Below, in pieces: positions 11,656-16,621 of a stretch of DNA of 35,513 nt (its first letter is position 1; each line of letters starts with the position of its first letter). The notes under the pieces were generated by a model, which was not told the DNA's origin, did no database searches, and worked only from the letters and a program-made list of their open reading frames with translations. Origin of the DNA: an uncultured Bacteroidota bacterium (lineage in GTDB: Bacteria > Bacteroidota > Bacteroidia > Flavobacteriales_D > Sanyastnellaceae); NCBI GenBank assembly GCA_903932685.1, contig CAIZGX010000047.1, positions 1-35,513 of the forward strand, in the 5' to 3' direction. The position numbers and the translations under genes are program-made.

Positions 11656-14319
11656 ATGATAACCCGAATTATTGGGATAAACACCAGCACCTATGTGAAC
11701 GCAGAAATGCGTCTAGACGATTGCGATTCATTGCAATTGGTAGGACCTAATAACGTTGGTAAGTCCACCCTTATATACACCTTGAACTTCTTGTTCATTG
11801 TAGATGGATCGAAGATGTCCTTTTCAGGACAACGCCGTGGAGACAAGGAAACCATTCACCACTACTTCCCTACTCACAATCAGAGTTACATCATATTTGA
11901 AATCAAGAAAAACAATTCAAGCTATTGTATACTCGTAAAGCGCGACAGCGATGGTGAATTGGAATACTTCCGTTTTTCAGGAGAATATAACGCCGACAAC
12001 TTCTTCAAAAAAGAAGGCGCTCACCAGCGCATTCGTAAATGGGACGAAGTTCAAGAAGAACTGAAAACAGCTGGCGTAGAGCTTTATCTATTCAAGAGCA
12101 AGACTGAAGTATTCAATACGGTATACTCTAGAGGAAGAAAGAACGACGCTGCTATTTGGCTGGAAGACAGCGTGCGCACAGACGGACTTTCAAACAACTT
12201 CTCGAAGGTTTATCGCTATTTGATTAACTCGAAGTTAATCACGAACAAAACTTTAAAGGAGAGTTTAATTGTAGCGGATAATCGTGAGAACGAGGGACTG
12301 AGTTTCTCGCAGAAAAACAAAAAAGACATCAACGATTTGCTTCGCATTAACGAAGAAATCCGCACTGTAAAAAGCATTCAAAAAGAGTTTGAAGAATTTC
12401 GTGAAGTAGTGAACTTGTTCAAAGCAAAAACGCGTATCGTTAGCGATTTGGTTTATGCTTTCGACAAACAATACAACGGCGTAATCAACGAACTTGACAG
12501 CTCTAGATTAGAAAAAGAGAAGCAATATCAAACCACGCTTCTCAACCTAAATGAAAAACTAAAACCCAAGCAAGAAGAGTTAAATCGTGAATTGGGTAAA
12601 CGCGAATTGGAAGTTGAAATTCAAGAAAAAACATTCATCAATCTTCAAACACAACTAGATGAAATTGCTTCTTTCGAAGGGAAGAAATTCTTGGAAGAAT
12701 CACTATTGAATCTCGATGCAAAACGACGTGAATCGGAAGTGCGCATTACCATGGTCGAGAATCAAAAATTAGATTCTAAGAACTTGGAAGCGAAGCTTCA
12801 AAAAATTGACATGACTTGCGGAAAGTTAGAAGCGCAAATTAAAAATTACGACGACCAGTTAATCCACAAAATCACTGCGAAAGATGATATTCGCAAAATC
12901 TTGAACACTGTGTTTTCTCAAGAATTCGCTGCGCTTCCAAGCAAACTGGTGAAGAAAAAAATCACCAAAGCTGGAACCACATTAAGCATCTTCGATGGTG
13001 AAATTACTTTGCCAAAAGATTTAGTTCTTGCAGACATCCCTTCAGTAAAATCATTGAAAGATGAACTTCAAGAATTGAAGCGTGAAAAAGCAGAACTGGA
13101 AAAACTTTGGGCGGTTGCATTGAACTTCGACAAAGCGCAAAAAGAGTTGAATACGATTCTTGCTGACATTGAAGAAGTAAAAGAGAAGTTGAACAAGCTG
13201 AAGAACAAGCCGAAACTTGAAAAAGAAGCTGACGCAGCAGGAAAAAACCTGCGCACTTTGAAAGCTGAAAAAGAAAAATGTGAAGGCGACTTGAGCAAAT
13301 TGAAAAAAGAGCTTTCCGACAAAACACTGCTTCTCGATTCATTGCGTGAAGAAACCCGCAGAAGCGAAGAGCGAATCATTGAATTGAAGCGTCGCAAAGC
13401 TGAGATTGAAACCTTCGGAATTGTTCCAACTGAATTCGATACAACAGAATCACTGGACGAAATTTACGGTAAGATCAAAATCTCCAACACCGATCGCGAT
13501 ACGCTGAAAGGCAACAAGGACCGCATGTTTGACCACTTGCGTTTCAAAACAAATTCGGCAATGGCCGATGAGGAAGAATTCATCAAGTATTTGGAAGATG
13601 AAATTGCTTGCATCAACGACAAAGTAAAAAGTATCGACGGACTATTGGGAAGTATTTCAACTCAATTCGCCAATCCTGCTTTCACCTTGCGCAAGCGTTA
13701 CGAAGAATTCAAAACCTTTGTATACAATCGCTTCAACGAAAGTTTGGCTAAAACCAGAATATCAAACATTGAATCGCTGCGCATTGAATTGGTAGACAAT
13801 AAGCGCGTCTTATTCGATTTGGAACGAATAGCTTCAATCGAAAACTTGAATTCTCAATTGGCGTTTGAATTCGAACAAGGTGAAGATTTGAAAATATTGA
13901 ACCAATACCTAGACGCTGGGAAAACCATTGAATTCGAAGATCTATTCGACATTGAACTTCATCTTGATGTAAAAGGAAAGTTGAAACGTGTAGACTTGAA
14001 AGAACAAGTAGAGTCAGATGGAACAGACCGTATGATTCGCTTGGTGATAGTTATGGCTATTATCAATCGATTGGCAATCTCTGCTCCAGAAAATAAAATT
14101 GCGCTGTTCATCGACGAGATTGGAACCATTGACGAACACAACCGTCCGCAATTGGTTCAGTTCTGCAAAGAGCACAACTTCTTACCCATCTTCGCTGCAC
14201 CGCAGCCATATGATGGATTCTCGAAGTACTACTTCATCTTCCGTTCAAAAGGAAAAATTAACTTAAACGACAAGCAGCACGCTGTGCGTCGTGAAGACCT
14301 AAAAATATCAGAAAACTAA
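11656..14319 (+). CDS. SMC-like ATPase, MksB/JetC type
   Basis: The 887-residue protein has split ABC ATPase heads. Walker A is 'GPNNVGKST' (30-38) and Walker B is 'ALFIDEIGTIDE' (Asp820, Glu821). The place of the signature motif is taken by 'ESDGTDR' (786-792) instead of LSGGQ. Long coiled coils at about 215-400 and 465-590 flank a compact segment (about 405-460) that could be a small hinge. It has no CxxC zinc hook, which argues against Rad50. Such SMC proteins form condensin-like complexes with a kleisin and an MksE/KITE partner, and the next genes fit those roles. It is shorter than typical MksB or MukB. The stop overlaps the start of a 35-residue ORF (TAATG). The SMC nature is clear; the MksB-like label rests partly on context. 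Confidence 0.75.
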   Translation: MITRIIGINTSTYVNAEMRLDDCDSLQLVGPNNVGKSTLIYTLNFLFIVDGSKMSFSGQRRGDKETIHHYFPTHNQSYIIFEIKKNNSSYCILVKRDSDGELEYFRFSGEYNADNFFKKEGAHQRIRKWDEVQEELKTAGVELYLFKSKTEVFNTVYSRGRKNDAAIWLEDSVRTDGLSNNFSKVYRYLINSKLITNKTLKESLIVADNRENEGLSFSQKNKKDINDLLRINEEIRTVKSIQKEFEEFREVVNLFKAKTRIVSDLVYAFDKQYNGVINELDSSRLEKEKQYQTTLLNLNEKLKPKQEELNRELGKRELEVEIQEKTFINLQTQLDEIASFEGKKFLEESLLNLDAKRRESEVRITMVENQKLDSKNLEAKLQKIDMTCGKLEAQIKNYDDQLIHKITAKDDIRKILNTVFSQEFAALPSKLVKKKITKAGTTLSIFDGEITLPKDLVLADIPSVKSLKDELQELKREKAELEKLWAVALNFDKAQKELNTILADIEEVKEKLNKLKNKPKLEKEADAAGKNLRTLKAEKEKCEGDLSKLKKELSDKTLLLDSLREETRRSEERIIELKRRKAEIETFGIVPTEFDTTESLDEIYGKIKISNTDRDTLKGNKDRMFDHLRFKTNSAMADEEEFIKYLEDEIACINDKVKSIDGLLGSISTQFANPAFTLRKRYEEFKTFVYNRFNESLAKTRISNIESLRIELVDNKRVLFDLERIASIENLNSQLAFEFEQGEDLKILNQYLDAGKTIEFEDLFDIELHLDVKGKLKRVDLKEQVESDGTDRMIRLVIVMAIINRLAISAPENKIALFIDEIGTIDEHNRPQLVQFCKEHNFLPIFAAPQPYDGFSKYYFIFRSKGKINLNDKQHAVRREDLKISEN

Positions 14320-14426
14320 TGTCAACATCACTAACTCCCCCAAACTTCGCAATCCTTTACCCTACGAACATTCAAGAAATTGAAGAAGTAAAAGTTTGCT
14401 ACCATTTAGAATCAGAAGAAAAATGA
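14319..14426 (+). CDS. 35-residue small ORF between the SMC-like and kleisin-like genes
   Basis: ATG 14319 overlaps the stop of the SMC-like gene (TAATG). Its TGA overlaps the next ATG (ATGA at 14423-14426). Overlap at both ends is the usual sign of translational coupling and is the main support. The product starts with a Pro/Thr-rich stretch (MSTSLTPPNF) and ends in an acidic helix-like segment (IQEIEEVKV...ESEEK). I recognise no family. It could be a small condensin subunit or regulator. It could also serve only as a coupling ORF that keeps ribosomes moving into the kleisin gene. Confidence 0.55.
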   Translation: MSTSLTPPNFAILYPTNIQEIEEVKVCYHLESEEK

Positions 14427-15619
14427 TTAAAGCCGAACCGCGGACTATACTCAACTTCCTGAACACCTACTTCGATGTGGTGCGCGACTTGTTTGAATAC
14501 CAGCAACAAGACGGGCTAATTACGAAAGAAGTTTTCGACATGATTTGTCACAAGCATGGTGCGCAAATGAAAAGTCGTCTTCGCGAATACCGCGTTGTCC
14601 GTTCAATTGGAAGTGATTTCGAAATGCGCGATGTGTATTTCAAGTTGATGGAGTTTTTGTTGTTTGAATTCAAACCACTTCTTCCAGAAACCATTGAGAA
14701 ATACAAAGGAGCCATTTCTGAATTGTTCATGAAGATTCGCAAAAGCGAACATTCCGACCGCGACATTCTTCAAGAAAGAATTAAAAATCTTTCCGGTCAA
14801 GTGCGTGAATTCGTTGATTTGGTTGAACGGAATGCCTTCAGATTATTGGCAGAAACACGCGATTTAAAATCGAACATTGACCGCGTGCAATACCGCGAAA
14901 AGGTTCACAAGGCTTCTTTCTGGATTGAATACTATATTCTTCCTTTGAATCGCATTCTCGATGTAAATCACAGTGAATCCGTAACCAGTAAGTTGGTTGA
15001 AGTGTGCGAATACGCGAACAGAAAACGTCTCGATTATTCCGACGAAACTACGCGAAGTGAATACGAAAAACTTTATACGCAGCTCATTCAAACCAATCAA
15101 GACTTGTTGAAGCAATCGAAAATTCTAACCAATGAATTGATTCCACTTCTTGAACGCATTCGCACAGAATCTTTGATTCTAACCGGTTTTATCGAGTTCT
15201 TACGGAATCCATATAAAGTAGAGACACCGCCATTATTAAAAGGAACTCGAACAATGGTTTACGCAAAAGACATGTACTTCAAAGTACGTGAATTCTTCGA
15301 GCAGTTTCAAATTGAAGCACCCGTTATTGTTGAAAATTCAGAAGCCGATTTCGACAGATGGATTTTCGACAGAACATTATTCAAGGAAAAACTCAATGCG
15401 AGTATGCCTGTGAATGATTTCTTCGGTTGGTGCTTCAAAGCCCTGAAAAAGGATTTCGATCAGATTGAAACGGACAAGTTCTTTGCGGTAACTGGATTGC
15501 TATTCGACGAAGAATTACAAATTGATTATTCAAAGAAAAGTGAACGCGTTTCCATTGAGACTACAACATCAATACTCAACGTGCCTAAATTAAAAATTGA
15601 ACCCGCAATAAAATTATAA
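14423..15619 (+). CDS. Kleisin-like condensin subunit, MksF/JetA type
   Basis: ATG 14423 is chosen over an in-frame TTG at 14396, because it gives the ATGA overlap with the small ORF and drops a short basic leader. The 398-residue, mostly helical protein has a winged-helix-like N-terminus (about 5-60), long helices (about 95-260) with a 'REKVHKASFWIEYY' segment, and a smaller C-terminal region (about 300-398). There is no signal peptide or enzyme motif. Size and position between an SMC-like and an MksE-like gene fit the kleisin that bridges the SMC heads. The assignment rests mainly on operon context. Confidence 0.6.
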   Translation: MIKAEPRTILNFLNTYFDVVRDLFEYQQQDGLITKEVFDMICHKHGAQMKSRLREYRVVRSIGSDFEMRDVYFKLMEFLLFEFKPLLPETIEKYKGAISELFMKIRKSEHSDRDILQERIKNLSGQVREFVDLVERNAFRLLAETRDLKSNIDRVQYREKVHKASFWIEYYILPLNRILDVNHSESVTSKLVEVCEYANRKRLDYSDETTRSEYEKLYTQLIQTNQDLLKQSKILTNELIPLLERIRTESLILTGFIEFLRNPYKVETPPLLKGTRTMVYAKDMYFKVREFFEQFQIEAPVIVENSEADFDRWIFDRTLFKEKLNASMPVNDFFGWCFKALKKDFDQIETDKFFAVTGLLFDEELQIDYSKKSERVSIETTTSILNVPKLKIEPAIKL

Positions 15620-15620
15620 C

Positions 15621-16166
15621 ATGGTATATCCAGCGCACCATAGACAAATTGTTGAAGAACTCATGAATGGTAAGTTCTTATTGAACAACGAAGAGCATTT
15701 CAATAGTTTGAAAGAAAACGAATCGTTTTACACCGAGTTTTTTAAAGTATCCTTCGACCTTGAATTAATCATGAAGCCCGAGTTCTGTTATTTGTTAAGC
15801 AAAGACACACAGGAAAACTTCTCTCGCGATGTAAGTATTTTCATTGCAATTCTGAGCTATGAATTAGATCGCGACGGACGCAATTTCATCGAGTCTTTCG
15901 ACTTCAATGAATTTACTTTCGAAGAAATCGACAACTATTTTCTAAATAGTTCCTTCGTAGATTTAATTGAAAGTAACAAGACGTTGCGTGATAATGAAAG
16001 TAGAAGAACGTTGCTAAATGGAATGGCGCGAAGAAATATTATTTTTAAAACATTTGAAGACCGCTTTACCTTTACACAAGCATACAAAGTATTTATTGAC
16101 TTCGCCAAAGAACTCGCATTGAAGCGAATTAAAGGCGAACCTGAAACACAAAACGCTGAACAATGA
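15621..16166 (+). CDS. MksE/KITE-like condensin subunit
   Basis: The 181-residue cytoplasmic protein starts one base after the kleisin-like stop. It has a double winged-helix-like pattern: an N-terminal 'IVEELMNGKFLLNNEEHFNSLKEN' type opening, an 'FARDVSIFIAILSYELDRDGRNF'-like middle (about 69-91), and a C-terminal wing near 'GMARRNIIFKTFEDRFTFTQAY'. This is the pattern I associate with condensin complex protein MksE. It would bind the kleisin and help close the SMC ring around DNA. Its stop overlaps the next gene's ATG (ATGA at 16163-16166). Confidence 0.65.
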   Translation: MVYPAHHRQIVEELMNGKFLLNNEEHFNSLKENESFYTEFFKVSFDLELIMKPEFCYLLSKDTQENFSRDVSIFIAILSYELDRDGRNFIESFDFNEFTFEEIDNYFLNSSFVDLIESNKTLRDNESRRTLLNGMARRNIIFKTFEDRFTFTQAYKVFIDFAKELALKRIKGEPETQNAEQ

Positions 16167-16621
16167 AAAAACTTATCTTCACTTTAACGCTAGCTTTCGC
16201 ATTTATCGCGAACAACAGCTCATTCGGGCAATCGCTTGAACGCCAAGCAGCACTTGACATCTGTGAATGTTCTCACATCATTGAAAACAATGTTAGCCCA
16301 GCATTCAAAGAAATTATCGGATTCAAATTAATTGCGGAAACACAAGAGGAGTTCGACAACGCAATGTTGACCTACATCACCAACAATCCCGATCAAGCAG
16401 CGAAAGATATGCAGTGGATGCAAAGCATGAGCGACGACAACGGTCAATTCTTACGTTGCATTTCTAAAATGGAAATGAAGTACGACAACACAGAGCTAGA
16501 CACTCCAGACATGTACAATTCCGTTATGGTAGAATTGTATGAAATTGAATGTGATTTTGCAGCTGCACTCTTCCTGTTTGGAGCTGAAGTTCAAGAGGCC
16601 GAAGTAACAGAAAGCGAGTAA
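16163..16621 (+). CDS. Small secreted protein at the end of the Mks-like operon
   Basis: The 152-residue protein has a signal peptide (about 1-22). The mature part is helical and acidic, with four cysteines (34, 36, 99, 130) that may form two disulphides; the first two are a CxC pair. I recognise no family. Its ATG lies inside the stop of the MksE-like gene (ATGA), so it is translated from the same mRNA. A periplasmic product tied this closely to a DNA-organising complex is unexpected. The pairing may be chance operon packing. The operon ends here at a strong terminator. Confidence 0.7.
   Translation: MKKLIFTLTLAFAFIANNSSFGQSLERQAALDICECSHIIENNVSPAFKEIIGFKLIAETQEEFDNAMLTYITNNPDQAAKDMQWMQSMSDDNGQFLRCISKMEMKYDNTELDTPDMYNSVMVELYEIECDFAAALFLFGAEVQEAEVTESE

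Follow-up and report, generated by a model that had tools for sequence, protein, structure and literature searches.

The operon and its genes

The window (contig CAIZGX010000047.1, positions 1 to 35,513, forward strand), from a genome of 2.37 Mb (G000), carries four genes in a row on the + strand in the order mksB-smORF-mksF-mksE, where smORF is a small ORF of 35 codons (Table 1).

Table 1. Features of the mks operon, in coordinates of the window
Feature	Position	Strand	Details
SMC-like ATPase (probable mksB)	11656..14319	+	887 aa; sequence shows ALFIDE and a P-loop, VGPNNVGKST; stop TAA 14317-14319
TAATG, shared by mksB (stop) and small ORF (start)	14317..14321	+	
Small ORF, clade-specific microprotein	14319..14426	+	35 aa, acidic, net -4, pI 4.5; ATG at 14319, stop TGA 14424-14426
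Conserved microprotein core	14382..14414	+	EEVKVCYHLES here; majority EEVKVKYHLxE
ATGA, shared by small ORF (stop) and kleisin gene (start)	14423..14426	+	kleisin ATG at 14423
Kleisin (probable mksF)	14423..15619	+	398 aa
Kleisin C-terminal tail EPAIKL	15599..15616	+	
Kite subunit mksE	15621..16166	+	181 aa; Pfam PF21980

The kite protein is MksE, matching Pfam family PF21980 at 68.1 bits against a cut-off of 27. The kleisin has no Pfam match over the cut-off and no PDB match by sequence; in a fold search, its best matches are MukF (3rpu_B, E 0.0048) and JetA (8q72_E, E 0.012), none of them below 0.001. The SMC-like protein gives weak scores only with SMC profiles and matched no PDB SMC chain by sequence, and the SMC protein of a relative (locus L057) is modelled by AlphaFold2 as a head plus a coiled coil. 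A Toprim nuclease of the JetD/MksG kind was not found in the operon, where only the small ORF lies between mksB and mksF. Genes for an SMC-like protein, a kleisin and a kite are present together, and because the MksE match is accompanied by kleisin neighbors MukF and JetA (at weak E-values), the operon is probably an MksBEF condensin without its nuclease. An earlier reading made from the letters of this DNA (hereafter the sequence-only reading) had called the operon condensin-like, which is correct and is sharpened to Mks by PF21980.

An SMC-like ATPase, a kleisin and a kite are likewise encoded in one operon in MksBEF (with a MukB-like SMC) of Pseudomonas and Corynebacterium. The Corynebacterium gene order is mksFEBG (excerpts of PMC10123090); the order here is different (mksB-smORF-mksF-mksE), with no nuclease gene in the operon and an extra microprotein gene.

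A conserved small ORF

The sequence-only reading had claimed that the small ORF is joined exactly to both neighbors by TAATG and ATGA, and this holds to the base, as the small ORF shares one base with the SMC stop codon and four bases with the start of the kleisin gene. By itself, the overlap geometry is weak evidence and only moderately surprising: when the 103-base gap is shuffled by dinucleotides with its flanks fixed, a doubly overlapping ORF arises in 361 of 20,000 shuffles. What sets the small ORF above chance is its conservation among relatives.

The family to which the source genome belongs (group f1, Flavobacteriales) was scanned in 114 genomes, 25 of which have a kleisin match. The 5′ end of the kleisin gene is readable in 24 of these (G025, whose contig carries only the end of the gene, was left out). 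Comparing the gap across relatives, as had been proposed, yields an intact small ORF directly 5′ of the kleisin in all 24 readable genomes, with lengths of 33-42 codons as aligned; several candidate ATGs occur in some of the ORFs (L062, L066 and L067 among others), and their start was chosen by the analyst. A profile of 23 of the proteins, searched against the 114 genomes, retrieves exactly those 24 at E <= 4e-5, always just 5′ of the kleisin, with the next-best match elsewhere at 0.043 or worse. As this profile includes its own targets, the search was repeated leaving each genus out. The small ORF is then the top six-frame match 5′ of the kleisin in 23 of the 24 loci, where it scores 9.1-27.7 bits. 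Shuffles (50 per locus) reach 7.8 bits at best, and the highest score among 57 other-family upstream regions (50 of them distinct) is 9.7 bits. Within its own run, the real match at each of the 23 recovered loci beats every shuffle and control; the two weakest, L066 (9.1 bits) and L057 (9.3 bits), are outscored by the top control from other runs (9.7 bits). L062 is missed by the leave-one-genus-out profile, with another frame scoring higher and shuffles and controls higher still, and its small ORF resembles the others by eye and position only.

Conservation therefore spans seven genera by leave-one-genus-out profile and, judged by eye and position, also an eighth (that of L062), which leaves an untranslated chance open frame scarcely credible despite the shuffle count given above. 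The small ORF has no sequence match in Pfam, NCBIfam, PADLOC or PDB chains. One of the 23 members matches Bot1p at E 0.091, which we took as chance. Judged from this comparison of sequences, the small ORF is a genuine protein-coding gene, of a microprotein family that has no counterpart in the libraries searched.

Spacing and coupling

The coupling proposed from the source genome is exact there, but the exact TAATG/ATGA pair recurs in only six of the eight genomes of genus g1 and is incidental. Three of four genomes of genus g5 combine TAATG with an 8-base kleisin overlap (1 and 8 bases at the two ends), and overlap at both ends occurs in 9 of the 24 family genomes, the remaining 15 being without such a double overlap or unreadable for it. 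Small ORF and kleisin overlap by 4 or 8 bases in genera g1, g5 and g19, and lie 12-38 bases apart in the other genera. The spacing from the SMC gene to the small ORF is elsewhere 2-146 bases where the two are adjacent on one contig (1110 in G039), and the whole SMC-kleisin gap measures 99-291 bases, with G039 (1251 bases) as the exception. Tight coupling is not a conserved feature of the locus.

These distances bear on the possibility that the small ORF is a cis-acting leader, whose translation sets kleisin output by coupling while the peptide itself is inert. The exact TAATG and ATGA overlaps of the source genome are what such a leader would lead one to expect, whereas the other genera keep the amino-acid core at the wider spacings on both sides.

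Selection and the conserved core

Selection within genus g1 was assessed in seven of its eight genomes (L050, which differs in length, was left out). The 21 variable columns fall on codon positions 1, 2 and 3 as 6, 3 and 12, and the source small ORF differs from the other six with dN of 0.050-0.083 and dS of 0.121-0.235. A low dN/dS had been named as a sign of a real gene, and dN is indeed below dS in 20 of the 21 pairs; the exception, L049-L055, has a single difference, which is non-synonymous. For the kleisin, dN is 0.008-0.023 and dS 0.50-0.99 among six of the g1 genomes, so that the small ORF is less constrained overall, mainly in its N-terminal half (in the six g1 genomes, codons 1-15 vary in 15 columns and codons 16-35 in 5).

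Between genera, the 11-codon core has a pS of 0.87 and a pN of 0.30 over 76 pairs, drawn from 14 chosen representatives with L062 and L066 left out. By this measure, the C-terminal core is seen to be under purifying selection between genera. Its consensus is EEVKVKYHL with acidic residues after it, and the microproteins of the family are acidic (net -2 to -8). The pattern V-x-V-x-F/Y-x-L, in which polar and hydrophobic residues alternate, looks like a beta-strand, going by the residue pattern alone.

The same part of the gene furnishes a second point for a cis-acting leader, as the last 20 codons hardly vary even at third positions in the six g1 genomes (4 of 20, where 20-codon windows of the kleisin give 5-19). 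This comparison uses windows of the small ORF and the kleisin; those of the SMC gene were dropped because of a row out of register. Between genera, however, the core is kept while synonymous change is near saturation, and in other families mksB commonly adjoins mksF without any small ORF. Taken with the spacings, this makes a leader with an inert peptide unlikely in our view.

Other families and the slot between mksB and mksF

The kleisin homologues compared comprise 56 loci from genome contigs plus samples of the order, phylum and class, with about the best 30 places per kleisin search becoming loci. Kleisin matches were counted in 29 of 299 genomes of the order (25 of these being family f1), 2 of 395 of the phylum and 49 of 395 of the class, the source genome included. 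None of the 57 upstream regions taken from other families, 50 of them distinct, yielded the small ORF, which is limited to one family among the sampled loci. In those other families, the distance from the end of mksB to mksF is usually no more than a few tens of bases (at most 330).

At seven related loci (L040, L041, L084, L089, L096, L097 and L120), a protein of 263-281 aa belonging to one family is encoded between mksB and mksF. A scan of three of the seven gave weak matches to JetD_C and DUF7281, under the curated cut-offs. This B-G-F-E arrangement, with a JetD/MksG-like gene in the slot, is scattered over the kleisin tree. In that tree (77 rows), all 22 kleisins accompanied by the small ORF form one group (100/100). 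The loci that have the JetD-like gene do not group together and are interspersed with loci that lack it, on branches several of which are long and unsure in their places; the scatter points to a probable repeated gain or loss of this gene. From the tree and the profile comparisons, the small ORF probably arose once, in family f1, in the same slot and without detectable homology to the JetD-like gene.

The operon can be set beside the plasmid-defense systems Wadjet, JetABCD and MksBEFG. It likewise has a JetABC-like core, and in some relatives the slot of the small ORF is occupied by a JetD-like gene; it differs from those systems in that no such gene lies in its own slot, and the small ORF shows no detectable homology to one. 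The shared slot, together with the weak JetD_C/DUF7281 matches, could suggest that the small ORF is the decayed remnant of a JetD/MksG-like Toprim gene. The profile-profile probability between small ORF and slot protein is 0.7%, though, and a remnant would be expected to decay, yet the core is under purifying selection; we consider this origin very improbable. With a profile of the seven slot proteins (A3), no JetD-like gene was found in the source genome G000. JetD-like matches occur in other contigs of family genomes at G029:C24:2784-3371 (L130, with an internal stop) and G042:C47:57233-57805 (L131).

An origin as the split-off end of a neighboring gene was rejected on both sides. SMC proteins are about equally long whether or not a family has the small ORF, and the kleisins align from residue 1 or 2 and give a profile-profile probability of 0.2% with the small ORF, so the small ORF is not the detached end of either.

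Linkage to mksF and mksE

In two genomes (G030 and G026), mksB lies on another contig and the small ORF, mksF and mksE are still together. In G039, a 292-aa gene on the opposite strand separates mksB from the small ORF, which stays with mksF-mksE. As mksB lies elsewhere in these three genomes and the small ORF is kept by mksF-mksE, the small ORF follows the kleisin and kite genes, although such linkage does not by itself prove a partnership.

The kleisins of the family also share their last residues: all 22 compared end in an ExxxK(I/L) tail plus at most one residue, in contrast to the 51 kleisins of other families, which have different ends (G(I/L)S in 34 of the 51). Kleisin tail and small ORF are, on their shared distribution, a candidate for joint change and nothing more. 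At many other-family loci (L068-L129), the end of the kleisin gene overlaps the start of mksE, an overlap that is mostly gone in family f1.

Structure models and residue comparisons

Docking was explored with AlphaFold2 on read-through sequences. In an in-frame read-through of small ORF and kleisin from L051, the small ORF is unplaced (residues 1-50 at pLDDT < 50), as it is in a read-through of SMC protein and small ORF from L057 (residues 881-967 at pLDDT < 50). The alignments contain the small ORF in read-through rows only (three rows for the kleisin fusion and one for the SMC fusion), and both runs are weak tests because of these few rows and because the tether is spacer DNA read as protein. 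The read-through models lend no support to docking. Family-specific columns number 28 of 398 in MksF, 11 of 181 in MksE and 65 of 887 in MksB, comparing 22, 23 and 17 family rows with 49, 51 and 17 others, respectively (rows chosen by a kleisin score > 470); by eye, these residues show no obvious clustering in any of the three proteins.

The models without an interface, and the lack of a domain match tying the small ORF to SMC complexes, are what one would expect if this small protein had an unrelated job and were merely carried in the mks operon. The distribution of the gene speaks against this. The small ORF did not turn up when the profile was run on the 89 family genomes, out of 114, that lack a kleisin match; these include incomplete ones such as G006, which has an SMC fragment and no kleisin. 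The small ORF lies beside mksF in 24 of 24 genomes, even where mksB lies elsewhere. We therefore regard an unrelated job as improbable.

A possible accessory subunit of MksBEF

The sequence-only reading had suggested a small subunit or regulator of the complex, and this candidate role is still the best reading of the data. In the form that we favor, and hold to be somewhat probable, the microprotein gene arose once in this Flavobacteriales family and encodes an accessory or regulatory subunit of a nuclease-free MksBEF, acting on MksF-MksE. We infer that the microprotein is made, binds MksF/MksE and tunes the complex. It would consist of a variable N-terminal half followed by a short, conserved, strand-like segment with an acidic end, act on the kleisin-kite part of the complex, and dock through its strand, by strand addition to its partner. 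JetD of Wadjet contacts JetABC, among others via an N-terminal motif of the kite JetB, according to excerpts of PMC10586767. A peptide encoded in the slot of the nuclease gene could, speculatively, use a surface related to this contact site.

Small proteins that act on MukBEF-type machines are a known mode, and AcpP is a small partner of MukB. A viral DNA mimic likewise targets MukBEF (excerpts of PMC7617805). The small ORF differs from both in its place between the SMC and kleisin genes; it is likened to them by description, not by sequence. Among the papers listed in our literature searches, none deals with a small protein encoded in an Mks or SMC operon.

The chromosome organization of Bacteroidota is poorly understood; in a Hi-C study that included two Bacteroidetes genomes, homologues of known condensins were found in neither (excerpts of PMC10197239). 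ScpB (PF04079) was not found in ten family genomes (G000, G004, G010, G024, G030, G035, G038, G039, G042 and G044) by a search that was positive in 11 of 14 control genomes, all 11 of them from outside the Bacteroidota. Given these outcomes, Mks may be a main SMC system where it is present. Three of the ten genomes (G010, G042 and G044) are also without an Mks SMC.

A far-reaching extension of the accessory-subunit reading, which we consider a long shot, is that the microprotein is a fourth SMC-complex subunit of ~35 residues that replaced the JetD/MksG nuclease on the MksF-MksE surface, holding a once Wadjet-like machine in a non-cutting, chromosome-organizing state in a lineage without detected ScpB. 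A conserved, kleisin-linked microprotein would offer a handle on the control of Mks and on any substitute for the nuclease in nuclease-free Mks, and the case illustrates that the reality of a 35-codon gene can be argued from comparison alone.

Other features of the window

The GTPase family MMR_HSR1 scores above its Pfam cut-off in residues 437-511 of the SMC protein, between the coiled coils, and is probably an artefact. A search with Rfam at gathering scores gave no match anywhere in the window. Positions 16163-16621, overlapping mksE by ATGA, encode a 152-aa protein whose start looks, by eye, like a signal peptide. Among the loci compared, its homologues lie 3′ of mksE in genus g1 only, and L043/L050, L046 and L047 have a second copy in tandem.
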